Assembly (NCBI RefSeq): GCF_039909015.1
Contig: NZ_CP150919.1
Location: 3,262,501-3,326,500 of the forward strand
DNA length: 64,000 nucleotides
Source of the DNA: Pseudomonas grandcourensis
GTDB taxonomy: Bacteria > Pseudomonadota > Gammaproteobacteria > Pseudomonadales > Pseudomonadaceae
Direction of reading: 5' to 3'
Below the pieces are notes generated by a model. It had not been told where the DNA came from. It saw only the letters and a program-made list of their open reading frames with translations, and made no database searches. This document shows, one piece after another, positions 50,692-64,000 of the stretch. Every line of letters starts with the position of its first letter. Within the stretch, counting starts at the first letter, position 1. A program made the position numbers and the translations under genes.

Positions 50692-51258
50692 TCAGGCCGT
50701 GGGGTGATCGTCGAGCAGGCCCCCCATGGTGGTGACGACCAGGACTTCGGCAACATCGTCGCCAGAATTAGCGATGGAATGCTGCTTGGTGGAGTCGAAA
50801 TGCACTGATCCCCCCGGGCCGAGCGGGTAGGTGTGGCCTTCGATGGTGTAGACGATTTGCCCGGAGAGCACATAGGTAAACTCTGCGCCTTCGTGGGAGA
50901 TGAGCTCGGACTGGTAGCCCACCGCCATGGTCATCTTCATCGCGTTGATCAGGTTGCCGGGGAAGTTGCTGGACAGGCGCTCGTAGACCAGCGGCTGGCT
51001 GCCGATGGAGTACCGCACGCGCTGGCCCTGGTGGGAGTCGGGCTGGGGCTGGGCGGGCTGGTCGAACAGGGTGTTGAGCGGAACGCCCAAGGCATTTGCG
51101 ATTCTCGCCAGCGAGGAGATGGACACGCCAGTGAGGTTACGCTCCGCCTGGGACAGGAAACTGGCTGTGAGGCCTGTTTCAGTGGCGACTTGGTTCAGGG
51201 TCTTGTTAGCGGCGCGACGGTGGCGGCGCAGCCGTTCCCCGATCTGTTCTGCGGTCAT
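50692..51258 (-). CDS. XRE-family regulator with C-terminal cupin domain
   Basis: A 188-residue protein starting MTAEQIGERLRRHRRAANK; an in-frame start at 51402 would run through the operator region and is rejected. HTH_3 at about residues 5-60 (LNQVATETGLTASFLSQAE, then VSISSLARIANALGVPLNTLF), and a cupin_2 sensor at 110-185 (HEGAEFTYVLSGQIVYTIEG, YPLGPGGSVHFDSTKQHSI). Such regulators control amine or amino-acid uptake and breakdown genes. It lies between dppA and the M24 peptidase, with two operator-like sites in each promoter. Confidence 0.92.
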   Translation of the reverse strand: MTAEQIGERLRRHRRAANKTLNQVATETGLTASFLSQAERNLTGVSISSLARIANALGVPLNTLFDQPAQPQPDSHQGQRVRYSIGSQPLVYERLSSNFPGNLINAMKMTMAVGYQSELISHEGAEFTYVLSGQIVYTIEGHTYPLGPGGSVHFDSTKQHSIANSGDDVAEVLVVTTMGGLLDDHPTA

Positions 51259-51331
51259 TGGCGTGGCTCGTGTTCTGAAAGGCGCCAGTATAGCGGGCAG
51301 CGCATTGTCGAAAAGGCTTTTCGCCTGATTG

Positions 51332-51386
51332 AAATTAAGTAGCACTGAAAATACGCATTGACGCGAGTTTAAGTCAGGCTTAAATT
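51332..51386. promoter_or_regulatory. Two operator-like sites between the XRE gene and the M24 peptidase gene
   Basis: 51332-51352 (AAATTAAGTAGCACTGAAAA+T) and 51366-51386 (AGTTTAAGTCAGGCTTAAAT+T) share the pattern of the two sites upstream of dppA. The second includes the dyad TTTAAG-N5-CTTAAA. The centres are 34 bases apart, about three helical turns. Confidence 0.6.
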
Positions 51387-51418
51387 TTGAGCGCTGCAAC
51401 ATAACTCAGGAGAATGAG

Positions 51419-52636
51419 ATGACAGTGGGTGTAGGTGGCAAAACTCCGGAACAGGCGCTGGCCGGCCTGGCGAAGATGACCGAGGGCATGCAGCCCATCG
51501 GCCTCGACGAATACCAGTCACGCATTGCCAAGGCCCAGGGCCTGATGCGAGAGCAGGGCATCGCCGCCCTCTACCTGAACGCTGGCAGCAACCTGTGCTA
51601 CTTCACCGGAGTGAAGTGGAGCCCGAGCGAACGCATGGTCGGCGCCGTGCTGCCCGCCAACGGCCCACTGGCCTATATCGCCCCGGCCTTCGAAGAGGGC
51701 ACCATCCGCGACTTCCGCGAAGTGGATGGGGTTATCCATGGTTGGCATGAGCACGAGAGTCCGTACCGCCTGCTGCTCGACATGCTCGCAGGAATGGGCA
51801 TCGCCGCCGACGCAGTGGTGGGCCTGTGTCCGTCCCTGGCGTTCTTCATGTTCGACGCAATCCGCCGCCTCGGATCGGGCTTCGAGTTCGTAGACGCTTC
51901 TTGCGTGATAAGCCTGTGTCGCTATCACAAGTCCGCTACAGAATTGGCGCTGATGCAGCGCGCCAAAGACATGACCTTGCAAGTGCACAAGGCTGCCGCC
52001 AGCATCCTGCGCGCAGGCATCAGCACCACCGAGGTTGCCGAGTTCATCCGCGAGGCGCACCGCAAGGTGGGCGCGCCGGGCTCGACCTTCTGCATTGTGC
52101 TATTCGGCGAGGCCAGCGCCTTCCCCCATGGGGTGAAGCACGCGCAGGTGCTCAAGGACGGCGACATGGTGCTGATCGACACGGGCTGCCTGCTCCACGG
52201 CTACCAGTCGGATATCACTCGCAGTTACGTGTTCGGCACCCCGAGCGACCGCCAGCGCGCCATGTGGAACCTGGAAAAGGCCGCCCAGCAGGCCGCCTTC
52301 GACGCCGCGCGCCTGGGCGAACCCTGCCAGGTGGTGGATGCCGCCGCGCGGCTTAGCCTGGAAGCCGCCGGCCTCGGCCCGGACTACCAGTTACCCGGCT
52401 TGCCGCACCGCACCGGACATGGCATCGGCCTGGACATTCACGAAGGGCCCTACCTGGTGCGTGGTGACCAGACACCGCTGGCCGAGGGCATGTGCTTCTC
52501 CAATGAGCCGATGATTTGCGTGCCGGGCGAGTTCGGCATTCGCCTGGAGGATCATTTCTACATGACCGCCACTGGCCCGCGCTGGTTTACCCAGCCGAGC
52601 CATTCCTTAGACGACCCGTTCGGGTTGGAGGCCTGA
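51419..52636 (+). CDS. M24-family metallopeptidase (Xaa-Pro dipeptidase type)
   Basis: A 405-residue pita-bread enzyme; AGGAG lies 6 bases before ATG 51419. The N-terminal creatinase-like domain includes LYLNAGSNLCYFTGVKWSPSER. The five metal ligands are visible: Asp in MVLIDTGCLLHGYQSDITRS (two Asp), His in HRTGHGIGLDIHEGP, Glu in CFSNEPMICV and Glu in GIRLEDHFYM. It should hydrolyse Xaa-Pro or similar dipeptides in the cytoplasm, a natural partner for the Dpp importer under the same XRE regulator. Confidence 0.92.
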   Translation: MTVGVGGKTPEQALAGLAKMTEGMQPIGLDEYQSRIAKAQGLMREQGIAALYLNAGSNLCYFTGVKWSPSERMVGAVLPANGPLAYIAPAFEEGTIRDFREVDGVIHGWHEHESPYRLLLDMLAGMGIAADAVVGLCPSLAFFMFDAIRRLGSGFEFVDASCVISLCRYHKSATELALMQRAKDMTLQVHKAAASILRAGISTTEVAEFIREAHRKVGAPGSTFCIVLFGEASAFPHGVKHAQVLKDGDMVLIDTGCLLHGYQSDITRSYVFGTPSDRQRAMWNLEKAAQQAAFDAARLGEPCQVVDAAARLSLEAAGLGPDYQLPGLPHRTGHGIGLDIHEGPYLVRGDQTPLAEGMCFSNEPMICVPGEFGIRLEDHFYMTATGPRWFTQPSHSLDDPFGLEA

Positions 52637-53167
52637 GGGCAGGCGATTGTCCGAGGTGGCCAGCCATTGAGGAGGACTTGAGGTGGATTGCACACAGCCT
52701 TTTTAGAACAACCGCATGCGAAGCAAATGTCCTACGAATCTGTGTGCCGGTGAGGCAGGTATGCCAAACGACGGAGTTATCTGTCAGGGTCCGGTAGCAA
52801 TCGCGATCGGGCCTGGCATCGATGATAGGGCTCTCAAACCGTCGCTCAATGACATCGGCGACGTCAGCAAAAACAATCTCAATGTTGGCCCGAGCGACTG
52901 AGTTCTGACGGGCTCGGGGAATGTATCGGGTGGCACACCAGGACAGGTACTGCTTCAACAGCCGCAGGTACTGAGAGCGGAGTAAGTTCGGGGTCATTCC
53001 TGGGCGCTTGATTCGTAGCATATGGTCGGACTCGGTACGATTGGTTCCAGACTGGAGGGAGCAGGGCAGTGCCCCCGCAATCCGCTGGCAGCGCGAGCGA
53101 TTGCCGTTGCTGATGACAACGCTGGAAATGGTCGCTCCAAGTTTGCAGGCATTAGGGGAGATTTACT
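52637..53167. other. Gene-poor stretch at the edge of the AT-rich region
   Basis: About 530 bases without a convincing gene. A minus-strand frame reading FADVADVIERRFE near 52850 has no ribosome site. Its DNA (CGCTCAATGACATCGGCGAC) is nearly the same as CGCTCAATGACGTCGGCGAC at about 54574, so it may be a decayed fragment related to the small ORF at 54512. Confidence 0.4.
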
Positions 53168-53928
53168 TTAGCTGGGTTCATCCTTGCAGGACGCGTCTAT
53201 CTTTCCGGGCACCCACCGTGGGTACATCCAGTTGGCAATAAACCAGTCCTGCTGAAGGCTACCGTCTTTGGCAAAAATGTCTTTTCCTTCAGCCAGCTTG
53301 AAATCGAATGTTTGTAGCTCTTTACTATTTCCTGAGTACAGCGTTAGCTCGATGGCTGAGTGGGGACCAAAAAGCTTCGAAAAACTTTTATTCACTTCAT
53401 CGACGAAGAAGTTTTCGGTGATGGTGAACGGGTCTTCAGGCGTCGGAACATGAATGTCTTTTAGTGCACCGCCTTCGAGCCACGCAGCCAAGCCAGGTAA
53501 ATGAACGCTGTCTGATACCCTCAGCCAGACCGTTTCGCCAGGATCAATTTTGATGGGTGTATTCGCGTTGGGATCGTCCGTAAGCACGCACTGACCAAAC
53601 ACACCAGGGCGGCCAAGCGTAGCGGTGTCACTTTTGACTATTTTGATCTTCGCCGACGTTAGGTCCCATAGTTTCTGAGTTGGAACTGTACAAACACATC
53701 GTCTTGGCCTTCAGTGTTGACAGGGCTGATTCGGTAAGGCTTGAGCCTCGCTCGAACAACGCTCAACGAGCTGGTGTCATCTCCCCGTAGTTGGCTGATG
53801 AATGAGATCACGCTGGTGCTGTCACTGAGGAAGCCAACAACCGCTACCAGCACACCTACCGAGCAGAGCCTCTTCGCAGTCAAACTGGTTCTTATAGATC
53901 GCACCATGAATTTGAGTTTCTGAAGCAA
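53168..53928 (-). pseudogene. Frameshifted gene for a single-pass membrane protein
   Basis: Two minus-strand frames join into one coherent protein of about 250 residues. The first starts at TTG 53928 behind AAAGGAA and has one helix (LCSVGVLVAVVGFLSDS). It stops at 53659 after VFVQFQLRNYGT. Reading the other frame through the same point gives WDLTSAKIKIVKSDTATLGR, then GVFGQCVLTDDPNANTP and on to 53168. A single indel near 53665-53675 would explain this. It may be a true mutation or a sequencing error. No family was recognised; the C-terminal part looks extracytoplasmic. Confidence 0.6.
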
Positions 53929-54027
53929 AAGAATTTCCTTTCATTCTCTCGATTATTGGTTCGTAAGCCTCCGCCGAAGTCACCTTGCGTGACTCAGGTC
54001 GGCTTCCACCGGTACAGCAGCAGTTGG

Positions 54028-54258
54028 TTAATCTCGATTGCCCGCTGCGTCGGCAGACTTCGACGATTTACTCCCAACTAATCGCAGCACCTCCAGCGCT
54101 ACGGACAATCCGCCTTTATCAGTACCGTGATTCCGAACCTGACGGTGGCAAGCCCCCACGAGGATCAGTTTTTTGGCTCGACGCCCTAGGGTGTCTCCGC
54201 ATACCTCATATTCTGCGGTGTGGGTGATGCCTTCATTGAGTAAAGAGAGTTGTTGCAC
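54028..54258 (-). CDS. Small hypothetical ORF
   Basis: A 76-residue frame from GTG 54258 with AGGAG 7 bases upstream: MQQLSLLNEGITHTAEYEV, then GRRAKKLILVGACHRQVRN. Good ribosome site, no signal peptide and no recognised family. It may be a small island gene or chance. Confidence 0.4.
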   Translation of the reverse strand: MQQLSLLNEGITHTAEYEVCGDTLGRRAKKLILVGACHRQVRNHGTDKGGLSVALEVLRLVGSKSSKSADAAGNRD

Positions 54259-54511
54259 AATTCGACTCCTGATGGAAAAAAGAGCTGTGCGCAGGCACGA
54301 TTAATTATGGCTCGAAAGAGGGGCCAAGCAGGCCGGTATTGAAGCACGGTTCAAGACATTTTGAATCGACGGAAACCATCTCCTGGTTAGTTTTCCAGAG
54401 GCATAGGGGAGGGGCGCTGGGGCAGCCGGTTGAATCTACAGCCAACAGCAGACATTCATCAATTTCGCTATCAAAGCAAGAGGGCCTAAGCCATCAAAAC
54501 CCCCGCTTTGC

Positions 54512-54715
54512 TTAGTTCTCTGCTTGAAGCTGTTCCAGGATGAACCTTAGCCTTCGCAGCAGTTCGTCGCGCCGCTCAATGACGTCGGCGACATCTGCTT
54601 CAGCTTTGCCGATTCGGGCGACAAGGTTGTCGGCTTGACGGCCGCTTTGGAGCCGGATGGCGTCATTAATATTGAGGCCACGGCTTTTGATAGATATAGA
54701 AAGCCTGGATCGCAC
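54512..54715 (-). CDS. Small coiled-coil ORF
   Basis: A 67-residue frame (GTG 54715). Residues from NDAIRLQSGRQADNLVARIG through KAEADVADVIERRDELLRR would make a charged coiled coil. There is no clear ribosome site. It may be the C-terminal remnant of a larger gene. The part encoding DVADVIERR is almost repeated at about 52850. Confidence 0.35.
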   Translation of the reverse strand: MRSRLSISIKSRGLNINDAIRLQSGRQADNLVARIGKAEADVADVIERRDELLRRLRFILEQLQAEN

Positions 54716-54940
54716 GCAGATGTGCCGCAGCCGTGTTGTGAGCGCAGCACCTTAGTGACGTCCAATCTCTCAATGGGCCATGTCCTTCGTGTTCATGGCG
54801 AGTCCTTGAATGAGGTGGCTGCAGATGAAGCTGATTCAGTGCCGTTTCTCTTCAGGTCAGCGTGTACCGCTGCTCGTGCAGATGCGGCAATCGATAATTA
54901 ATGCGATCGACTGTAACCGACTGATATTTTTGGCTTTTTT
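54716..54940. other. Intergenic stretch left of the repeat cluster
   Basis: No convincing gene. The sequence ends in a T-rich run (54928-54941) directly before the first repeat, TGTTTCGGAG. Confidence 0.4.
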
Positions 54941-55061
54941 TGTTTCGGAGAGTAAAAATGCGACTTTGTATGTTGAAAGTCGCATTTTTACTTCAGAAAC
55001 ATTAGGGGGAAGTGCATTTTTATTTGACGTGGATTGTATGAAAGTCGCATTTTGTTTTACA
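54941..55061. repeat. Cluster of AAGTCGCATTTT repeats, candidate transposon end
   Basis: TGTTTCGGAGAGTAAAAATG(CGACTTT) at 54941-54967 and its near-exact reverse complement at 54976-55001, ending AGAAACA, form an inverted repeat around GTATGTTG. The arms differ by one substitution and one indel. Further reverse-orientation copies start at 55010 (AAGTGCATTTTTATTTG) and 55041 (AAAGTCGCATTTTG). A diverged forward copy, AAAATGCAACTTTT, is at 55562-55575. Repeated transposase-binding sites starting with TGT are normal at Tn7-like ends, but the mixed orientation is not. Confidence 0.55.
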
Positions 55062-55781
55062 GAACCGCAGTTCGCATTGCTGAAACTAGCTATCGAGTCA
55101 TTAACGTCTGTCGCTTTCATGGAAGTGTCAGCGTTTGTTAATCAATCGAGCTTCTATGACGATGCCCGGTACGTTCGGATAGGCGGTACGGACGAAACCG
55201 GATAGCTGAGGGCGAGTTGAGCGTGGAATTTTAGCGAGCAAACCGTACATTTAGTACTGCATGCACCTTCAGCGCTTAGCAACAACGCATATAAGCCCCA
55301 AAAATCAGGCAAAAAAACAATCATTTATTCGATTGCTTGAGGGCTTTTAAATCGAAATTTTCGATGTTTTTATGCGTAGGGCATGTGACTCTCAATAATT
55401 CCTCCCGCGATTATGCCAATATTTTCAAAAATATCAATCTAACCGATGCGTATCTCGCCGGACTCTCTACTAGGGCGGGGGATGTTTTGGCGTTCAATCA
55501 AGATATTTAACGATATATTGACCGGCCTTCACAATATATGGAAATTTAATGGAAAAAGTCGAAAATGCAACTTTTAGTGTGTTTGCCTGCTTTGACAGTT
55601 TTCAGTTTTGAGGTTTAACTGCGCCACCCAAACGATATTTGGGGACAAGGATTGACGGAATCGACTTAAGGCAACAAACGCTCTTTAAAAACTTGCGACG
55701 ACAGACACCTATGCATGAATAAAAATTTTGATAGGAAGACATGCCGGGCCTAGATAACTAAAGTCAGAATAGGACGGTAGT
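55062..55781. other. Long AT-rich leader before the transposase gene
   Basis: About 720 bases without a convincing gene. It holds a palindrome ATCGAAATTTTCGAT near 55351, the dyad ATATTTTCAAAAATAT near 55420 and the diverged repeat at 55562-55575. It probably contains the promoter and more transposase contacts. Confidence 0.45.
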
Positions 55782-57590
55782 ATGACTGAGGCGACTGGTT
55801 TGGAAACTGATGCGCACACCACGACGATTTCAGTTCAAGCGCTCACGGAAGCGAGCGACCTTACAGAAGTCCAGCGGCACGCATTGGGAAGTGATCGTTT
55901 TGAAGTCGTTAAGAGATACTGGGACGGCGACCTGACCCCTGAAGAGGGAAGTGAAGCTCTAGGAATAAGCCGTTCCCAGTTTTTTCGCATTTGTGCTAAA
56001 GCCCGGGGAGCCCTGAACTACCTACAGGTGGTTCCAGGGAAGAGGGGACGAAAGGCTGACAAAATTGTGTTGCCTTATGAAGTAGAGAGAATGATCGAGG
56101 AGATGTATATCGAGCATTATCCCCAAGGCAAGACTTTTTCGGCAGTATGGGAAGCATGTCAAGTTGAAGGCGATCGTCGGAGGATTACACGACCGAGTTA
56201 TTACTCTGTCTGTCGGTGGATTAAACAACGGCCTGAGAGAGAGCGGTATGAAATGGTCAACGGCGAAGAAGCTGCTGCCCAAAGATACGATTACCGACCA
56301 GGGTACAAAGAAACAAATCGTCCGCTGGAGTGGGTTCAAATTGACCATACGCCTGCAGATCTGCTGGTAGTCGACTCACTTGATAGAACCACCATTATTG
56401 GTCGGCCTTATTTAAGTTTTGCGATCTGTATCCATACAAGGGTGGTATTGGGATTTTATATCTCGTTTCTTCACCCTAGTGCAGTAACGGTAGCGAAGCT
56501 ACTTGAGACTTGTGTCCTACCGAAGAATCGACTACTCGAAGCATGGAAATTACGTTCCGACTTATGGCCGATGCATGGCCTTCCAGAAGTTATCCACACG
56601 GACAACGCCAAAGAGTTTGTGTCTCAGGTATTTCAGTTGAACGCTAAAGACTTTGATATTGACGTTCAACAGCGCCCGATCGGCCAGAAGCACTTCGGTG
56701 GACATATTGAAAGCCTTATTGGCAAGCAGTCAATGAAATTACTTCATGCTCTGCCAGGAACTACAGGTGCAAATACAGTTGCGCGTAAAAAGCTAAAGAG
56801 TGAAAAGAGTGCTTGTGTAACAATTGAGCGTCTCAGGCGTTTAGTTGTCTTAGGGATTCATTCTTATCATGAAACAAAACATTCTGAGCTAAATGATCGC
56901 CCCGCAAGGATCTGGGAGAAATTCCAAGCTACGAAAAATGCACCCAGGATGTTATTGGAGTCAAAGCATGATAGTTTTCGTTATTGTTTCTATCCTGAAG
57001 TTCCAAGAAAGAAAATCACTACTGGAGGTATAGAGCTATTCAGAAGGTTTTATGATCATGCGGGCTTCGAAAGCTCTGTGCTGGAAGAAGTATTAGTTAA
57101 ATATGACCCCTACGATATCAGTTACATAATGGTGTTTTTACACGGTAAGTGGATCAAAGCAACATGCAAACGAAACATTTTCGAACGCAGCAATGACTAT
57201 GAATTATACCGTTGGGAGCGCCAACAAAAAGGTGAACGAAATGGGACAATGAGCGCCGCTGGTGCTGAGTCGAAAGGGCAGATATTTGATGAGGTAAAAG
57301 AAGAAAAAAGCCTAACTGCTCAAGCTAAAAGAAAGAGAAAACGCGTAAAAGGGGAAGAGGACTACCGAAAAGAGAATGAGCTGCTCGATAAAGCTGGCAA
57401 TAAGCCGGAAAGCCATGCTCCTGGAAATAAAAAAACCTCTTCTGAGTTGAAACCAAAAGCTAAGAAAGAAATAGCGAAATATAAAAGCGACGTGAAAAGT
57501 AACGTCATAGATCTTAAAGCGATAATGAGTAAAAAACTTACGAACGAAACAGATGATGAAATTGTTATATACAATATGGACAGATTCTGA
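55782..57590 (+). CDS. TniA/TnsB-like DDE transposase
   Basis: A 602-residue protein; AGGA precedes ATG 55782. An N-terminal HTH region (about residues 30-75: EGSEALGISRSQFFRICAK) is followed by the integrase core. The catalytic triad is complete: Asp188 in WVQIDHTPADLL, Asp274 in VIHTDNAKEF and Glu310 in HFGGHIESLIGK, with 35 residues between the last two, the classical D35E spacing. A beta-barrel region follows, and the last 110 residues are a charged, Lys/Glu-rich tail, in the place where TnsB contacts its ATPase. It catalyses strand transfer at the element ends. Confidence 0.93.
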   Translation: MTEATGLETDAHTTTISVQALTEASDLTEVQRHALGSDRFEVVKRYWDGDLTPEEGSEALGISRSQFFRICAKARGALNYLQVVPGKRGRKADKIVLPYEVERMIEEMYIEHYPQGKTFSAVWEACQVEGDRRRITRPSYYSVCRWIKQRPERERYEMVNGEEAAAQRYDYRPGYKETNRPLEWVQIDHTPADLLVVDSLDRTTIIGRPYLSFAICIHTRVVLGFYISFLHPSAVTVAKLLETCVLPKNRLLEAWKLRSDLWPMHGLPEVIHTDNAKEFVSQVFQLNAKDFDIDVQQRPIGQKHFGGHIESLIGKQSMKLLHALPGTTGANTVARKKLKSEKSACVTIERLRRLVVLGIHSYHETKHSELNDRPARIWEKFQATKNAPRMLLESKHDSFRYCFYPEVPRKKITTGGIELFRRFYDHAGFESSVLEEVLVKYDPYDISYIMVFLHGKWIKATCKRNIFERSNDYELYRWERQQKGERNGTMSAAGAESKGQIFDEVKEEKSLTAQAKRKRKRVKGEEDYRKENELLDKAGNKPESHAPGNKKTSSELKPKAKKEIAKYKSDVKSNVIDLKAIMSKKLTNETDDEIVIYNMDRF

Positions 57591-57827
57591 AACTGTTGTT
57601 GATTGGTGATTGAAGTAGACTCCATTAAGCACGAGCATTCTTGTGCGTCATTGTTTTTCATTCTCGAAATGTATTTTGGCCTGTCTGTCGTTGCAGTTGT
57701 TTTTTTGGTGCTCATTTATAAAGTCACCCGACATTAAGAAAAGCGATACTCATGTTGCTAATTTGGATTCCGGTATGGAATTCAAAGAGGGCACGGCGAT
57801 TGATATTGACCAACAAAAGGTGAAATT

Positions 57828-58730
57828 TTGGAAGTTACAAATTATACACATGTGCACCATAGTCGACACCATCTTTTTGAACTTGATGATGAGGAGCGAA
57901 TGTTCGCCTGTGCAATCGATTTCTGGGTTCCCCACCCTGATGGTGAGAAGATTATTTCCAGGGTAAAAATTGCAATGCGAATGAATAAAAAGACTGTAGC
58001 GCCTTGTATGTTGGTCACCGCGCCCGGAGGGGGTGGTAAAACTGCATTGATAGATGAACTGAAACACCGCAATCTCCAATTCGATGATAAGCTCCTATTT
58101 GTTACTATGCACCAAAGTCCGAACGGATACGCGTTGCGAGATTTAATCCTCCTAGAAATGGGATTGGGTGTAGGTCGTCGAGCGCGTCAAGGGGACAATA
58201 TCACCCCTCTCATGCAACATATGATTAAAACTCAGAATATTCGCGGAATTGTTATTGACGAAGTGCATGATGCATTGACGTTGACTGAAGTTCAGCAACG
58301 AATCAACTTATCTTTGTTGAAAAATCTTTCTGGTTCGACCTACGGTCTTTCAGTTTTTGCATTCGGGGTACCGGCAGCGGCAGCTGTTCTCAGGCGCGAC
58401 CCGCAACTGGCTCGACGGTACGCAGTGCACTCAATGACCGAATGGAAAAACGGCAAGGATTTCCGAAGCTTTGTGGGGACATATATCACGATGCTCCCCT
58501 TAAAAAAGCCAACGAATTTTAAAGACCAAAACCTGTTTCTCAAAATCATGCATGCAGGGCAGGGCATAACTGACAACATTGTAAAGATTCTTCAAGCATC
58601 TGCGATGATGGCGATCATGGACGGTAGCGAGTGCATTACACATCGACACATTGATGATATCGAAAAAATCATGAGTGAATTTAACTTTGCTTTGCGCGAC
58701 GCAGAACCTGAAGGCATTGAAAGTGAATGA
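57828..58730 (+). CDS. TniB/TnsC-like AAA+ ATPase
   Basis: A 300-residue protein starting at TTG 57828 with AAAAGGTGA 5 bases ahead; a stop at 57807 rules out a longer form. Walker A is APGGGGKT (Lys71, Thr72), Walker B is IVIDEVHDAL (Asp144, Glu145), and an arginine-rich sensor region RRDPQLARRYAVHSM follows. TniB/TnsC proteins polymerise on target DNA and recruit the transposase. The stop overlaps the next start by four bases (ATGA). This one looks fully active. Confidence 0.9.
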   Translation: MEVTNYTHVHHSRHHLFELDDEERMFACAIDFWVPHPDGEKIISRVKIAMRMNKKTVAPCMLVTAPGGGGKTALIDELKHRNLQFDDKLLFVTMHQSPNGYALRDLILLEMGLGVGRRARQGDNITPLMQHMIKTQNIRGIVIDEVHDALTLTEVQQRINLSLLKNLSGSTYGLSVFAFGVPAAAAVLRRDPQLARRYAVHSMTEWKNGKDFRSFVGTYITMLPLKKPTNFKDQNLFLKIMHAGQGITDNIVKILQASAMMAIMDGSECITHRHIDDIEKIMSEFNFALRDAEPEGIESE

Positions 58731-59527
58731 CTAATACTAAGAAGGCTCGCATTGTGCTGGAGGGCCGACACGGCTTCCAGCACAGCTTATTAACTCAAAA
58801 AAAAGCACTTGATGAGCTTAATGTAGCAAGCCGAAGAAATAAGTGTGGAGGACTCGTTATTTTTTTTGGGGCTCCAGGATGTGGCGTCACGACAGTACTC
58901 AAACAGTTTAAATCAACATTAGAGCAAGAGCCGTTCTGGCCTCGATGTGAGCAGTTCAGTTCACGGGTAAGCCTGATAGATCATGTTCTGGATTGTGCAG
59001 GGTTGCGGAATGATTTTGATTATACATCCAGTGTCCCAAAATCTCTTATAGAGTTTTCATTTATTACTGGGCGGAGAACGATAATAATTGACGGGCTAGA
59101 AGATTATCTGTCTTCTAAATATAGCTATCCACAGCTACTTCCACACATCCATCGATTCGCGACCTGTTCAAATGGGTTTTTAGTAGTGGCTACCACTCAA
59201 GATAAAAAGCTATTTCAGAAATGCCGCGACTTAAATATTGATTTTAAGCAAGAAATTATCTTGGATGATGAGATTGGTCGGGAAGAATCTGAGCAATTTA
59301 TAAATAATTTTTGGCGAAGTTGTAATGAATTTTTAGGTGAGAACTTATATTTAAGCAACGAACTCAGAACTTTCGCTTTGGGTGGTAATAATGGCACTTT
59401 GTCTTCGCTAATCGCACGCCTAGAAATACTCTACGCCGCAAAGACGATTGGTTTTGAGTTGAATTTTCATAGTTTCGCCGATTTTGAGACTTTTGAGTTG
59501 GGTGTGTGGAATGAGCTGTATTCCTGA
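58727..59527 (+). CDS. Second AAA-like ATPase with degenerate nucleotide site
   Basis: A 266-residue protein with the same length range and order of motifs as the ATPase before it, but a changed active site. The P-loop reads GAPGCGVTT, with Val54 where the essential lysine belongs, and the Walker B reads TIIIDGLEDYL, with Gly123 where Glu would be. It may bind nucleotide weakly or not hydrolyse it. The gene is coupled to the first ATPase by ATGA overlap and to tniQ by a 17-base overlap, so it is an integral part of the module. It probably forms a mixed complex with the active ATPase. Confidence 0.8.
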   Translation: MTNTKKARIVLEGRHGFQHSLLTQKKALDELNVASRRNKCGGLVIFFGAPGCGVTTVLKQFKSTLEQEPFWPRCEQFSSRVSLIDHVLDCAGLRNDFDYTSSVPKSLIEFSFITGRRTIIIDGLEDYLSSKYSYPQLLPHIHRFATCSNGFLVVATTQDKKLFQKCRDLNIDFKQEIILDDEIGREESEQFINNFWRSCNEFLGENLYLSNELRTFALGGNNGTLSSLIARLEILYAAKTIGFELNFHSFADFETFELGVWNELYS

Positions 59528-60503
59528 GCCGGTAGTTGGCGAAAGCCTTAGCTCATGGATATTTCGTGTGCAACTTATAAAGCGCGAATACTTAGATTTA
59601 AGCTCATTCGATAAGTCGAATCCATTCACTGAGTTAGGGTCGAAGTCGGCTGAAAATGTAGACCCAGATGTCAATAGCTTAGACGCTTTGATTAATGATT
59701 TTAGCAGTACGTACGACGTGCCAAAATCATATTTGTTGGACAAATTTCAGCGTAGTACACAACCAATCATGGCGAAACACTACAGTTCCGCTTATTGCTA
59801 TGAGTGTATAGCTAGCTCAATCCGCACTATTGGAGCTCCTCATATGAAGGTGGCATGGTGCTTTGCTCTAGCTCCAGTTTGCACAGTGCACGGAAAGGTA
59901 TTAAACGATAGGCCAAGCTATAGTTCCAGTGTGGAGAGCTCACCTCGTCAGGTGTTTCTTTGGCATACTGAAAATTTATTCAGCAGCAAATTGAAATGGA
60001 GGGAGCGGGCTTCTTACGACGTGGTATCTGCATTGGCCTTGCGGGTTCAGAACTTGCATGAAAGTATTAGAGCGAGCGCTATTAACACAAAACGACAATG
60101 CATGATAGATAATTTTATACTCACGATAGTTCGTGCGTTACTGATGCCGTCCGTAAGTTGTTTTTATTCCAACAGATTTCAAAGTGAGACGCGTCTAGGA
60201 AACAATAATTCGTTTTCCGATAGCTGGTTTCGAAGCTTTTTCCATAATGTGTTTCTTGCTTCAGCCTCGGAAAGGGCTATAGCAATGTGTCTTACGGGCG
60301 TGTTACTGGGGTGGATAACCAACGAAGAGGCGGAGCTATTGCAACCTGTATACGATCGAGAACAAAATATAACGCAAAATATTTGGACGGTCTTTAAGAG
60401 TGATGCGAATATGCTGCACTGGCTCAAATTCGAACTATTACGAAATGAAACAGACTTGTTGAGCTTAGCGCAGCTTTCCAACAAGCCCGGAAGCTGGAAG
60501 TAA
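59511..60503 (+). CDS. tniQ: TniQ-family target-selection protein
   Basis: A 330-residue protein; ATG 59511 lies inside the end of the preceding gene, and an in-frame TTG at 59484 is less likely. The N-terminus has the TniQ opening PEPVVGESLSSWIFRV. The zinc-binding knuckle is C96-x2-C99 in YCYECI and C124-x2-H127 in APVCTVHG. TniQ/TnsD proteins connect target recognition with the ATPase. No second, DNA-binding TnsD-type C-terminal half is obvious, so its target is unknown. Confidence 0.85.
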   Translation: MSCIPEPVVGESLSSWIFRVQLIKREYLDLSSFDKSNPFTELGSKSAENVDPDVNSLDALINDFSSTYDVPKSYLLDKFQRSTQPIMAKHYSSAYCYECIASSIRTIGAPHMKVAWCFALAPVCTVHGKVLNDRPSYSSSVESSPRQVFLWHTENLFSSKLKWRERASYDVVSALALRVQNLHESIRASAINTKRQCMIDNFILTIVRALLMPSVSCFYSNRFQSETRLGNNNSFSDSWFRSFFHNVFLASASERAIAMCLTGVLLGWITNEEAELLQPVYDREQNITQNIWTVFKSDANMLHWLKFELLRNETDLLSLAQLSNKPGSWK

Positions 60504-60504
60504 T

Positions 60505-61038
60505 ATGTATACATATCTAGTGCCTTATTATTTTAGGCCGGGCTGCCTAATACAAAAAAGCAATGAGCGATTTCCCAGTCCAGTAACTTTATGCCTTATT
60601 TTGGACTCGAAAACTGGAAGCATACTGAGTTGGTCATGCTCCTTAGATCACCCTAGTGTAAACTTATACATGCGCGCCTTATTATTGCTAAGAGGCGAGT
60701 ACTCAGCTCTAGATTTGTCGTGCGAGGAAAAGAATGGACGCGCCTCTTTTTTTGAATCCGTAATGAGCTCAACCATGAAACGCACTCGTGGTATTGAAAT
60801 GGATAAGATGCTTCCCTCGTTGGAATGGAAGAAATCGCGTAGAGTTTTAACATTTATAAGTGATATTAAATTTCAGGATTTATTTTTGCATCATTTCTAC
60901 AATTGGCCAATTGACATGGTGAAAAGTCCTCAGTGCCTTGAGGAATTCTTATTTAAGTCTTTGGTCGCGCGGGCAGTTAGACGAACGAATGATGAGTGTG
61001 GTAGGGCGGGAAATGACTTGATTAGGCTTAATATATAA
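60505..61038 (+). CDS. Last gene of the transposition module, unknown function
   Basis: A 177-residue protein beginning MYTYLVPYYFRPGCLI, two bases after the tniQ stop with no separate ribosome site, so translation is probably coupled. The segment VTLCLILDSKTGSILSWS followed by CSLDHPSVNLYMRALLL resembles in pattern the RNase H-fold strand of the transposase of the same module (LSFAICIHTRVVLGFYIS then FLHPSAVTVAKLLE). It may be a stub of a polynucleotidyl-transferase fold without a full catalytic triad. This is a weak inference; no family was recognised. Confidence 0.65.
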   Translation: MYTYLVPYYFRPGCLIQKSNERFPSPVTLCLILDSKTGSILSWSCSLDHPSVNLYMRALLLLRGEYSALDLSCEEKNGRASFFESVMSSTMKRTRGIEMDKMLPSLEWKKSRRVLTFISDIKFQDLFLHHFYNWPIDMVKSPQCLEEFLFKSLVARAVRRTNDECGRAGNDLIRLNI

Positions 61039-61298
61039 GCGCTGTGCGTCGTCTACTGGTATTTAAGCGATGTTGCGGAAGGCGGATATTTATTTAAGTG
61101 TTCAATAAGGCGCATTGATACTCCATGCAGATGGGGAAATGCTTGCAGTGAAATAATTCTGTGCTTCTACGCTTAACTTAAATATCAATATTCAAATTCA
61201 ATTTAACTGTAAATTTGATGACTTAAGCGGCCGCTTTCAAACCGATCAAAGGAAAACGTAGACCATTTGGCTCACCGCGATTGCCCTCCCTGAAACTT

Positions 61299-61772
61299 CT
61301 ACGACTTCCTCCAATACTCCCTCACCGACGTCAACGCCAGCCCCAACTGGGTCGCTGCCTCTTGCTGCGTCGCACCTTCCGCTTTGAGTGCCAGTACCGC
61401 TCTCTCATTATCTGCGTTTAGCGGTTTACCGCGTCCTCGTTTTATGAGGTTACCGTCAGCATCGAACTGGTCGCTGAGCACCTTCATGCCCCCTTCAGCT
61501 TCGAAGGCCGCCACGTCGATTAATGCACGACCAATTACGGTGAGTGGTTGCTCACCCTGGCGATGGGCAATGCACAGAGTAAGCATTGCGATGGGATCGA
61601 GACCAAGGGATTGCGCGAGCTCGTCAAATTGCTCGACGGTGATGCTGGTCTGCGCGTTCTCAAGCGCACTGACTTTGCGTCGGTGGGTCGCATCCGAGAC
61701 GTCAGCGTACCTGGCGCGCCGAATGAGGCGGAGCGCCCGAAGCACAGCTGCAAATGCGGTTCTCAGTTCCAT
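61299..61772 (-). CDS. HTH regulator (XRE-like N-terminus, second HTH at the C-terminus)
   Basis: A 157-residue protein; GAGAAAG lies before ATG 61772. Residues about 5-65 fit an XRE-type domain (AVLRALRLIRRARYADVSD, ALENAQTSITVEQFDEL). The C-terminal end GRGKPLNADNERAVLALKA, then GATQQEAATQLGLALTSVRE resembles the HTH of resolvases and invertases. It is transcribed toward the transposition module. Similar regulators are common in Pseudomonas islands. Its target is unknown. Confidence 0.7.
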   Translation of the reverse strand: MELRTAFAAVLRALRLIRRARYADVSDATHRRKVSALENAQTSITVEQFDELAQSLGLDPIAMLTLCIAHRQGEQPLTVIGRALIDVAAFEAEGGMKVLSDQFDADGNLIKRGRGKPLNADNERAVLALKAEGATQQEAATQLGLALTSVREYWRKS

Positions 61773-62007
61773 GACTTTCTCAAAAGTCAGGATATAGCCA
61801 TAACTGAGGTTTACGAATAAACGTCAATATAGTGTATTATCCGTTTCGGCGGCGCCCCGGTGGGCCGCAAGCAGTGGTTTGAAGGCAGTAGGGCAGACCC
61901 CGCTATGAGCGTTGAGCCCGCGACACCCGTGGTGGCCCCCCCAGTTCAAGATCACCTTCGGGCCATCACTCGACGAAGCCAGCAGATGCATTTACGGAGA
62001 TTTGAGA

Positions 62008-62415
62008 TTGAGCGCAGATAAAAACGAAGGTTCTGAGGAGTTACTTGATGGCGACCCTGGCGTACCTCGCCAAGGAGTCGTGGATTCAGATGAAATTGTG
62101 ATGGGGCTAGTGCAGGCACTCTATCCGCGCAAACCGTATTGCCTGGTTGAAGCTTGGACAATTTTCAAAGTCGACGTCAGCGAAGATGAGCTCAACAAAA
62201 TCCACGCAGCAGGGCAGCTACCTCTAGTTTTGTTTGCTCACAATGTGCGCTTCGACAGCCAGCGTCGTTTTGATGTCGGGGACTGGATGCGCAGCACTTT
62301 TGCGACTTCGTTTGAGGAGGGATTCCTCTTTGAAACGAGGAACACTGTCTACGTGTTGTGCGGCCCGGGTCACGAAAAGTCAGCGAGCCTCAATTCAGTT
62401 CTTTCTTTTTTCTAG
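62008..62415 (+). CDS. DUF6957-like island protein
   Basis: About 135 residues. The core YPRKPYCLVEAWTIFKVDVSE, LVLFAHNVRFDSQRRFDVGDW and TRNTVYVLCGPGHEKSAS has the pattern I associate with DUF6957, a family of small proteins in Pseudomonas accessory regions. The start is uncertain: TTG 62008 has GGAG 8 bases upstream, and the frame stays open further left. No enzymatic motif is seen. The next gene on the same strand starts 36 bases later. Confidence 0.6.
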   Translation: MSADKNEGSEELLDGDPGVPRQGVVDSDEIVMGLVQALYPRKPYCLVEAWTIFKVDVSEDELNKIHAAGQLPLVLFAHNVRFDSQRRFDVGDWMRSTFATSFEEGFLFETRNTVYVLCGPGHEKSASLNSVLSFF

Positions 62416-62451
62416 TGAGTAATGGCTCACCAATGGAAGCGGATGGTTTAG

Positions 62452-62874
62452 ATGTTTGGCACAGATTTAATTGATAGGGCAGGGATCGTGGGTATGTTCG
62501 GCGAAGGCCATGCCCATTGGGTCAAAATTTCTCGATTGATCCGGACTCACTGGTATCACGTGGATGTGAAAATCCGCAATGAAGGCCGAATGACCTCTTT
62601 AGTTTTGATGGCGGGTGATGAAGCCGCGTTTGTAGACATCCTCAAGAAGCGTGGGCCTGATTTCGAGTTGACACAAGTGCAGGCAGTAATCCCAAAGTGG
62701 ATGAACAAAACCAACACATGGAGCATGGAAGAGTTAACCGGATTATCGCTAGGTCAGGATAAGCACGGGATCCCTGTGTGCCTTTTGGAAGTGGCTAGCG
62801 GAGAAGTGTACACAGACGTTCATGATCCTCTGTTTCGTATCGACTCCTTAGTTGAAGTAAAAAAAATCTACTGA
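62452..62874 (+). CDS. Hypothetical island protein
   Basis: A 140-residue soluble protein from ATG 62452 (MFGTDLIDRAGIVGMFGEG). It contains many conserved-looking aromatic residues (TNTWSMEELTGLSLGQDKHG) and no signal or membrane segment. No family was recognised. It is in line with the genes before and after it, so an operon is likely. Confidence 0.55.
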   Translation: MFGTDLIDRAGIVGMFGEGHAHWVKISRLIRTHWYHVDVKIRNEGRMTSLVLMAGDEAAFVDILKKRGPDFELTQVQAVIPKWMNKTNTWSMEELTGLSLGQDKHGIPVCLLEVASGEVYTDVHDPLFRIDSLVEVKKIY

Positions 62875-62889
62875 ATCGGGGCTGGAACA

Positions 62890-63267
62890 ATGTCAGGAAA
62901 TACAGAGATCGAGTTTCATTCCAGACGCCTGACGGATTTCCATTTGCGCAGAATCCTACGTGCGTGCCAGCACCATTACGAACTTCCCATCACGGCTTAC
63001 TTGAGCGACGTTTTCGTCTTCGGCAGCATGGCGGTCGGAGTCGTTTACGGTCACAGGGAAATCGGTCAATTCGGGCGTTTTGATGACGGGCATTTTTTGC
63101 GTACCTCCTCCATACGTTTTGTTAAGAAGGAAGGGCGGTTCTGGGTGCTTACAACGTTGGATGCCAGATACGTGATCGCGTCATTCAAGCGCTTGGATGG
63201 ACGGCCAAGCTTCCGAGGCTTACTGGCGGGTATGAATGGGTCTCCTTTGCCACCAACTGTTCAGTGA
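62890..63267 (+). CDS. Hypothetical island protein
   Basis: A 125-residue protein from ATG 62890, 15 bases after the preceding stop (MSGNTEIEFHSRRLTDFHLR). It is basic, with no signal peptide. No family was recognised. Context suggests the same transcript as the two genes upstream. Confidence 0.55.
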   Translation: MSGNTEIEFHSRRLTDFHLRRILRACQHHYELPITAYLSDVFVFGSMAVGVVYGHREIGQFGRFDDGHFLRTSSIRFVKKEGRFWVLTTLDARYVIASFKRLDGRPSFRGLLAGMNGSPLPPTVQ

Positions 63268-63308
63268 GCTCAGGTCAGGCTCATGCAGCATGAAAAGCTG
63301 GATTTGCT

Positions 63309-63524
63309 ATGGCTCAAGAAGACGACGATACCGTGTATTGCAATGTGCAAATGTCCCTGGCTCGTGGCAAAGAGCTGCTTCAGCTAGTAACAACGCTACG
63401 CGAATCAGGATCTCATCCGAACCTCGATTCTGTTTTCCATCGTATGCAATTTGAGCTGTCGATGACGATCGATATTGTTGAGCACCCACCGACATGGGGT
63501 GCTGGTGAACCTACGAAGCACTGA
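63309..63524 (+). CDS. Small hypothetical island protein
   Basis: A 71-residue protein from ATG 63309 (MAQEDDDTVYCNVQMSLARG) with an acidic start and helical middle (GKELLQLVTTLRESG). The ribosome site is weak. No family was recognised. Confidence 0.45.
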   Translation: MAQEDDDTVYCNVQMSLARGKELLQLVTTLRESGSHPNLDSVFHRMQFELSMTIDIVEHPPTWGAGEPTKH

Positions 63525-63677
63525 TTAGCCCAGCCCATTGTTCGCTGCTTGTGGGAGATCCGGTGAAGCTAGGCGCTTACGCGAAGGGGCGATTTAATCG
63601 TAGCGGCGCATCTTGATCACGTGCCGCGGGCTTACATGTTTTCTGTCGCACCTCGCAAAAAGCCTAAGGACTCACAA

Positions 63678-64000
63678 ATGAAGATTCACGTGCTCTCAGA
63701 TCTACACCTCGAGTTTTCTGATTTCGTACCGCCTCCGAACGTCGCAGACGTGGTGATCTTGGCGGGTGACATACACACCAAGTGTCGTGGCGTGGAATGG
63801 GCAAATGAAACCTTCACATGTGAGGTTGTTTATGTCTGTGGAAACCATGAATTTTACGGCGGCCACATCGATCACACCCTGCGCAAAATGCGAGATGCCG
63901 CCGCACCCCACGTCCATGTCCTGGAAAACCAGGTGTGGATTCACAGCGAAATACGGTTTTTGGTCACAACGGGGTGGACTGATTTCACATCTACAGGCGA
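63678..64000 (+). CDS. Metallophosphoesterase, N-terminal part (cut by window edge)
   Basis: The frame is open from ATG 63678 to the window end (about 107 residues), with AAGGA upstream. It begins MKIHVLSDLHLEFSDF and shows the calcineurin-like motifs SDLHLEF, ILAGDIH and VYVCGNHEFYGG, which bind two metal ions. The rest, including the C-terminal His motif, is outside the window. Such enzymes are frequent in mobile islands; the substrate is unknown. Confidence 0.85.
   Translation, partial: MKIHVLSDLHLEFSDFVPPPNVADVVILAGDIHTKCRGVEWANETFTCEVVYVCGNHEFYGGHIDHTLRKMRDAAAPHVHVLENQVWIHSEIRFLVTTGWTDFTSTG

Follow-up and report, generated by a model that had tools for sequence, protein, structure and literature searches.

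Results

We analysed a 64,000-nucleotide stretch of the Pseudomonas grandcourensis chromosome (NZ_CP150919.1, positions 3,262,501 to 3,326,500; hereafter the window) that carries a five-gene module, tniA-tniB-X-tniQ-Y, in which X is our label for the second ATPase-like gene (open reading frame, ORF, 3) and Y for the fifth gene (ORF5). Probably, this module forms the transposition operon of a TnsA-less Tn7-like (Tn5053-type) transposon of 141,647 bp that targets chromosomal dif, the XerCD site at which the two copies of the chromosome are separated, with X as a presumably dead partner of TniB. It is best read as a five-gene variant of a dif-targeting transposon family that is Tn5053-like and has no TnsA; neither the size nor the target could be seen by the initial annotation. 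In all eight elements whose ends we mapped without reference to dif, the right end lay 53–129 bp from the single dif. Throughout, G numbers denote genomes (G000 is the host genome, a single contig of 6.76 Mb) and L numbers denote loci. An initial annotation had described a transposase, two ATPase-like genes, TniQ and a fifth, unknown gene; Pfam calls and the recurring gene order bear this description out, and the five ORFs sit where they had been placed (55782..61038, forward strand):

55782..57590, forward strand: tniA, TnsB-like DDE transposase of 602 aa (Pfam Mu-transpos_C, rve)
57828..58730, forward strand: tniB, TnsC-like AAA+ ATPase of 300 aa with the Walker A lysine present and a TTG start (Pfam TniB, 2.7e-22)
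58727..59527, forward strand: X, TniB homologue of 266 aa with a degenerate Walker A (GAPGCGVTT)
59511..60503, forward strand: tniQ, short TniQ target selector whose ORF opens at 59,484 (Pfam TniQ, 1.2e-6)
60505..61038, forward strand: Y, 177 aa, no named family, possibly a degenerate RNase H-like transposase core

Element ends and their distance from dif

We searched 14 elements, that of G000 included, for paired termini starting with TG and flanked by an exact 5-bp repeat, making no use of dif; in the first round, the right-side search started at a recombinase gene described below. For G000, this placed the start of the element at 54,883 (G000 3317383), and not at tniA as the initial annotation had implied, and its right end at 3459029, outside the window. 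The two termini matched at 21 of 24 positions, compared to 15 of 24 for the runner-up pair with an exact 5-bp flank. The left end comprises the following features:

54878..54882: left copy of the 5-bp duplication, GCAGA, repeated exactly in the 5 bp that follow the right terminus (G000:C1:3459029)
54883..54906, forward strand: left terminus and terminal inverted repeat (TIR) TGCGGCAATCGATAATTAATGCGA, 21/24 match to the right terminus
54953..55055: three transposase-site-like repeats (AAGTCGCATTTTTA and variants) at 54,953 (reverse), 54,977 (forward) and 55,042 (forward)

All six matches to this repeat (two mismatches or fewer) in 205.5 kb of G000 fell within 1 kb of an end, three per end, and all five matches in 119.7 kb of G313 lay near the ends of its element. 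These AGTCGC / GTCTCA repeats replaced an earlier candidate for TniA sites, the AT-rich repeats CAATATAT upstream of tniA, which occur near left ends and have no clear right-end partners. Including G000, the search mapped eight of the 14 elements. The others were those of G313 (37,380 bp, TIR 20/24, target-site duplication (TSD) CGTTG), G254 (locus L004; 94.3 kb, TIR 23/24, TSD GTAGG), G628 (16,541 bp, TIR 22/24), G637 (63,305 bp, TIR 20/24), G022 (TIR 21/24), G182 (TIR 16/24, next best 13) and G357 (TIR 18/24, next best 15); no clear end pair emerged for G215, G291, G157, G295, G088 and G615. Homologous modules thus do have conserved ends around them, the lack of which the initial annotation had named as an argument against its reading. 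The TG-type inverted ends, the arrays of transposase-site repeats and the 5-bp duplication are Tn7-like in the broad sense, as is the combination of a TnsB-type transposase, a TnsC-type ATPase and TniQ in conserved order.

The right end of the G000 element lies 123 bp from the only dif found in that genome, and the corresponding distances are 82 bp in G313, 53 in G254, 129 in G182, 126 in G357, 65 in G022, 77 in G628 and 65 in G637. All eight arose independently and keep within the same short range of dif, the pattern of a dif-hunting element. Exactly one dif-like match was present in each of 20 genomes and in 33 of the 35 genomes of a further set (at one mismatch, the pattern was absent from G163 and G057), and a reversed control pattern had zero matches in both sets. 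An end search confined to 700 bp around dif gave nothing clear in eight of 12 tests; the other four placed the ends of G049 and G011 and, spanning contigs, those of G332 and G088, all with exact TSDs and TIRs of 18–20/24. Among 31 TniB matches at E≤2.6e-26, 19 share a contig with dif, which in 18 cases lies downstream of the operon at 34–139 kb; in the exception, L095 in G291, it lies 104 kb away on the other side. Among more distant TniB elements (identity ≤27%), several lie megabases from dif, for example those in G190, G029, G121, G078, G194 and G149. In G290, a genome of the same species with no TniB match, synteny with the window ends at 52,881, 85 bp from the G290 dif.

Recurrence of the five-gene order

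Searching 398 Pseudomonas genomes with TniB produced 67 with a match at E≤1e-8, from which 38 loci were fetched; these, together with L004 (from a record named Pseudomonas fluorescens H24), L043 and six more, formed a set of 46 loci for profile searches. The TniA, TniB and TniQ profiles drew on the window, L004 and L043, and those for X and Y on the window, six proteins, L004, L043, L095, L096, L099 and L103. The complete order that the initial annotation had proposed searching for occurs in nine of these 46 other Pseudomonadaceae loci (L004, L043, L095, L096, L099, L103, L201, L202 and L203), and L200, on a short contig, has tniB-X-tniQ-Y. Only L200–L203 made no contribution to the X and Y profiles, and they were themselves chosen by an X-profile match; they supply three of the nine complete loci. 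Most other scanned loci are plain tniA-tniB-tniQ. In L126, L127 and L129, a protein of 627–641 aa matches both X and TniQ and looks like an X-TniQ fusion, and L132 has X plus a split TniQ. One contig, G291:C1, holds a five-gene module (L095) and a fused module (L126) about 75 kb apart, possibly nested.

In a tree of TniA and TniB from 39 elements, the ten five-gene elements formed one clade (support 92), apart from the fused and split X types, which grouped in a clade of their own (support 100). This tree is midpoint-rooted and compatible with X having arisen once or twice. An earlier X profile matched four of 398 genomes of the genus. With a wider profile, 59 genomes from a family-wide draw of 398 matched at E≤1e-3, six of them strongly (E≤1e-30: G000, G313, G628, G630, G615 and G637); among the other 53, the match in G475 (1.3e-10) was TniB (L204) and the rest were at 4e-5 or weaker, of which only L205 was examined. 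A search of 5.8 billion proteins recovered ten X homologues, and all four that carry an organism name are from Pseudomonas. X was encoded in none of 114 pattern stretches from viral contigs and had no match at E 0.01 in plasmids. At the DNA level, positions 50,700–64,000 were compared with 38 genomes: the module matched in its own genome only, and others matched pieces of the flanks.

Proteins X and Y and the side of dif

X is homologous to TniB/TnsC over its full length but lacks the Walker A lysine, a loss that the initial annotation had not reported. Its sole Pfam match is a weak one to AAA_22 (1.1e-3, below the cut-off), and Foldseek on its own ranked TnsC sixth, after ORC and NSF chains. 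The lysine is missing from all 14 X proteins of the five-gene type that were read, from three fused X-TniQ proteins and from the X of G319, and is present in all 39 TniB proteins examined. Instead of being a dead paralogue, X could still function as a regulatory ATPase whose P-loop is unusual: its glycine-rich loop is otherwise mostly retained, and two more distant X-like proteins (L121 in G182 and L122 in G357) keep the lysine. Given its consistent absence from the X proteins proper, we consider this unlikely. In the elements that encode L121 and L122, the right end faces the opposite arm of dif, and these genes may represent an independent or an ancestral state. At least one of the five proteins thus looks like an inactivated copy of another part of the machinery.

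Y proteins are 157–186 aa long, and that of the window matched no Pfam family. A low-confidence structure model resembles the RNase H core of TnsB/MuA, and Y is possibly a degenerate, inactive transposase core of this type, but a profile comparison did not support Y as a paralogue of TniA (P 0.24, compared to 0.2 for a reversed control).

The TTAAAT arm of dif, which is the XerD arm in the naming of PMC10132070, faces the right end in the five-gene elements of G000, G313, G254, G628, G637 and G088 and in the fused-type elements of G049 and G332. The opposite arm faces it in G182, G357, G022 and G011. Extending this comparison to elements with unmapped ends, on the assumption that their right ends are near dif, placed every five-gene, fused and split X carrier with a readable side on the XerD-arm side, along with G306 (operon not read). 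The other side is occupied by eight three-gene elements (G022, G215, G409, G011, G364, G051, G301 and G100) and both lysine-bearing X-like elements.

On a bolder, tentative and rather doubtful reading, a family of giant transposons would sense the XerCD-dif complex, and one branch would use duplicated, inactivated copies of its own ATPase (X) and transposase core (Y) as a dead sub-complex that determines next to which arm of dif the element inserts. Four three-gene elements (G386, G064, G032 and G232) also lie on the XerD-arm side, so X is not required for that side, and we rejected the notion that X fixes it. Since three-gene elements occur on both sides, the side of dif looks like a clade-level trait rather than proof of what X does. 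Our explanation is at its weakest on what X and Y do.

Alternative explanations for the position beside dif

The target could be a neighbouring gene rather than dif itself. The G000 element is inserted at codon 24/25 of a decayed tyrosine-integrase gene (as read with the flanks joined), which is represented by two features:

52778..52973, reverse strand: fragment of the interrupted tyrosine-integrase gene in the flank, 80% identical to the L043 integrase
54569..54882: further integrase fragments (blastn against L043, L046 and L050)

Within the latter, the piece at 54,756–54,882 is inverted relative to 54,569–54,755; the segment around the insertion (54,569–54,882) is inverted relative to L043, L046 and L050. 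The G313 element lies directly upstream of the same kind of integrase gene, so that both insertions are at the 5′ end of one integrase gene family. Moreover, a Cupin_5 (DUF985)-type gene is next beyond the right end and dif in G313 (Pfam 2.3e-42) and, matched by eye, in G000, G254 and G628. However, dif is present in G182, G357 and G637, whose flanks contain neither gene (among listed ORFs of at least 110 aa within 2.5 kb), and in G022, which was read at the junction frames only. The tyrosine recombinase in the G182 flank is of the right-end type described below and not of the interrupted-integrase type. Conversely, G313 has another copy of the integrase (L046), which is accompanied neither by dif nor, among the listed ORFs around it, by a tni gene. 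A neighbouring gene as the target is therefore quite improbable. The tyrosine-integrase gene was rejected, as none occurs in the listed flanks of other relatives. We likewise rejected the 3′ end of a thymidylate-kinase-like gene (Pfam 9e-8) that ends the G254 left flank, as the right end of that element is at dif. Such a gene is found near the left side of three elements (L004:6062-6700, L098 and L129).

Proximity to dif could also reflect survival, with large insertions tolerated near the terminus and no targeting involved. Islands are often found near the terminus, and the five-gene elements mapped without dif are large (16.5–142 kb), but tolerance would hardly bring the same, right end of eight out of eight elements to within 53–129 bp of one short site in multi-megabase genomes, and we give this explanation very little weight. 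Finally, an island integrated at dif by XerCD (an integrative mobile element exploiting Xer, IMEX), with the tni genes as mere cargo, would account for the adjoining dif and for the Xer-like integrase gene, or its remains, at the locus in G000 and G313, but is already largely refuted and highly unlikely: genomes have one dif match, no second site was found at up to six mismatches in 205.5 kb around the G000 element, and the elements end in inverted repeats flanked by exact duplications of 5 bp.

Operon layout, recombinase and cargo

TniA matches Mu-transpos_C (1.1e-6) and rve (9.5e-6, below its cut-off), and its acidic triad, assigned by eye, falls in QIDHT, HTDNA and GGHIES. The tniA and tniB genes are 237 bp apart, tniB and X share 4 bp (ATGA), the probable tniQ start at 59,511 gives a 17-bp overlap with X, and Y follows tniQ after 1 bp. 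These junctions suggest translational coupling. The initial annotation had taken the overlapping starts to imply fixed stoichiometry; the overlaps are there, but do not by themselves imply it. Compared with L004 and L043, the window's TniA is 49–52% and its TniB 62–67% identical; across all three loci, identity is 60–67% for TniB, 49–57% for TniA, 21–29% for X, 29–33% for TniQ and 28–32% for Y. The fast divergence of X, TniQ and Y would fit roles on the target or partner side. Further features in and beside the operon are:

55680..55691, forward strand: boxA-like GCTCTTTAAAAA, about 100 bp upstream of tniA (read in the sequence, position computed)
61299..61772, reverse strand: helix-turn-helix regulator-like cargo gene (weak Pfam match; 34% identity to L043:12484-12999)
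61912..62415, forward strand: DUF6957 cargo gene (Pfam DUF6957, 7e-39; similar gene by eye at L043 13447-13998)

The first resembles a boxA and may serve in antitermination of a long transcript; the same stretch precedes tniA in L043 and L004. The helix-turn-helix match is clear in the L043 relative, which also lies beside the module.

Near its right end, about 140 kb from the operon, the G000 element carries a gene for a 472-aa tyrosine-recombinase-like protein, an obvious candidate for cointegrate resolution. The initial annotation had seen no resolvase; this gene lies beyond the coordinates it covered, near the far end. A relative is at the right end in G313, where the homology crosses one stop codon, and relatives (E≤1e-10) occur in 12 of 20 genomes searched, G000 counted. 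Catalytic residues identified by eye are an arginine, HWLRH and a C-terminal tyrosine; Pfam gives a weak N-terminal match only and none for the G313 relative. The annotated absence of TnsA holds beside the operon, although the whole element was not searched for it.

Beside the recombinase is a Gabija GajA/GajB pair (G000:C1:3453051-3456706, L060:13652-17307), and the right-end cargo further encodes another tyrosine recombinase and a KfrA_N protein. The corresponding place in G313 holds part of a GajB-like gene (L062:54-1073). In mid-element, a long run of catabolic-type genes was recognized by eye (L059 and neighbours, G000:C1:3336-3433 kb), with FAA hydrolase, DmpG-like aldolase, acetaldehyde dehydrogenase and aldehyde dehydrogenase types among them; four genes of the run were tested with Pfam. 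With this run, the element looks like a catabolic transposon. Its GC content is 52.7%; the leftmost 51.5 kb of the window have 57.9%.

Discussion

Our data are consistent with the following mechanism. TniA would cut the 3′ ends only and join them to the target, producing a cointegrate that the tyrosine recombinase could resolve. By analogy with Tn5053, which senses a recombination site, TniQ may sense dif bound by XerC/XerD. X, as an ATPase-dead partner, would co-assemble with TniB at dif and tune the landing place, and Y might act as an accessory protein that binds X or TniQ and could itself be a transposase core without activity.

The dif site is widespread and single-copy, and cells have to preserve it, which makes it an ideal place for a safe landing. 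Large cargo, such as the catabolic-type genes and the Gabija-type pair, could spread between species by transposition at the terminus. The element also offers a testable case of TniQ-type transposons reading a recombinase-bound site, and the X/TniB pair a natural experiment in which one copy of a duplicated AAA+ regulator is without its Walker A lysine.

Although dif-hunting insertion sequences (the IS1202 family) have been described, we found in the open-licence literature, without supplementary files, no TniQ-type transposon that targets dif and no description of X and Y. Among the closest described groups are the clade 3 Tn7-like elements without TnsA, which are Tn5053 relatives with predicted replicative transposition and tyrosine or serine resolvases; X, Y and dif targeting are not mentioned in the sections of that study that were consulted (PMC8649781).

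With Tn5053/Tn402, the element shares tniA, tniB and tniQ, no TnsA seen, a 5-bp duplication, the hunting of a recombination site and a site-specific recombinase (family traits in part from PMC11406308 and PMC8373256). Tn5053/Tn402 has the serine resolvase gene tniR by tniQ, whereas here Y follows tniQ and a tyrosine recombinase is at the far end; there is no tniR directly after tniQ, although the whole 142 kb was not searched. In the majority of Tn5053 elements there is a single TniQ, and res sites are the target (PMC11406308). The present element, which has X and Y in addition and far larger cargo, targets chromosomal dif rather than the res of plasmids or Tn3-family transposons, and so falls outside Tn5053 sensu stricto. 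Tn6022/AbaR, which the initial annotation had suggested for comparison, likewise combines a short TniQ with extra target-selection genes. According to PMC10293859, it has TnsA, TnsE and TnsF (a dead tyrosine recombinase) and inserts in comM; here, the element has split a tyrosine integrase gene next to dif, and TnsA, TnsF and TnsE were not seen beside the operon, the whole 142 kb not having been searched. TnsF is 498 aa long, compared to 157–186 aa for Y, and X is TniB-like, distinctions drawn from descriptions and not from sequence comparison. Finally, the IS1202 family (ISAjo2 type) shares a TnsB-related transposase, a 5-bp duplication and the hunting of dif and pdif. As PMC10132070 describes them, these are 1.5-kb elements with a transposase alone that insert 5 bp from the XerC side, whereas the elements described here are multi-gene transposons, in G000 a five-gene operon in 141.6 kb, that insert 53–129 bp from dif, with all mapped five-gene members on the XerD-arm side.

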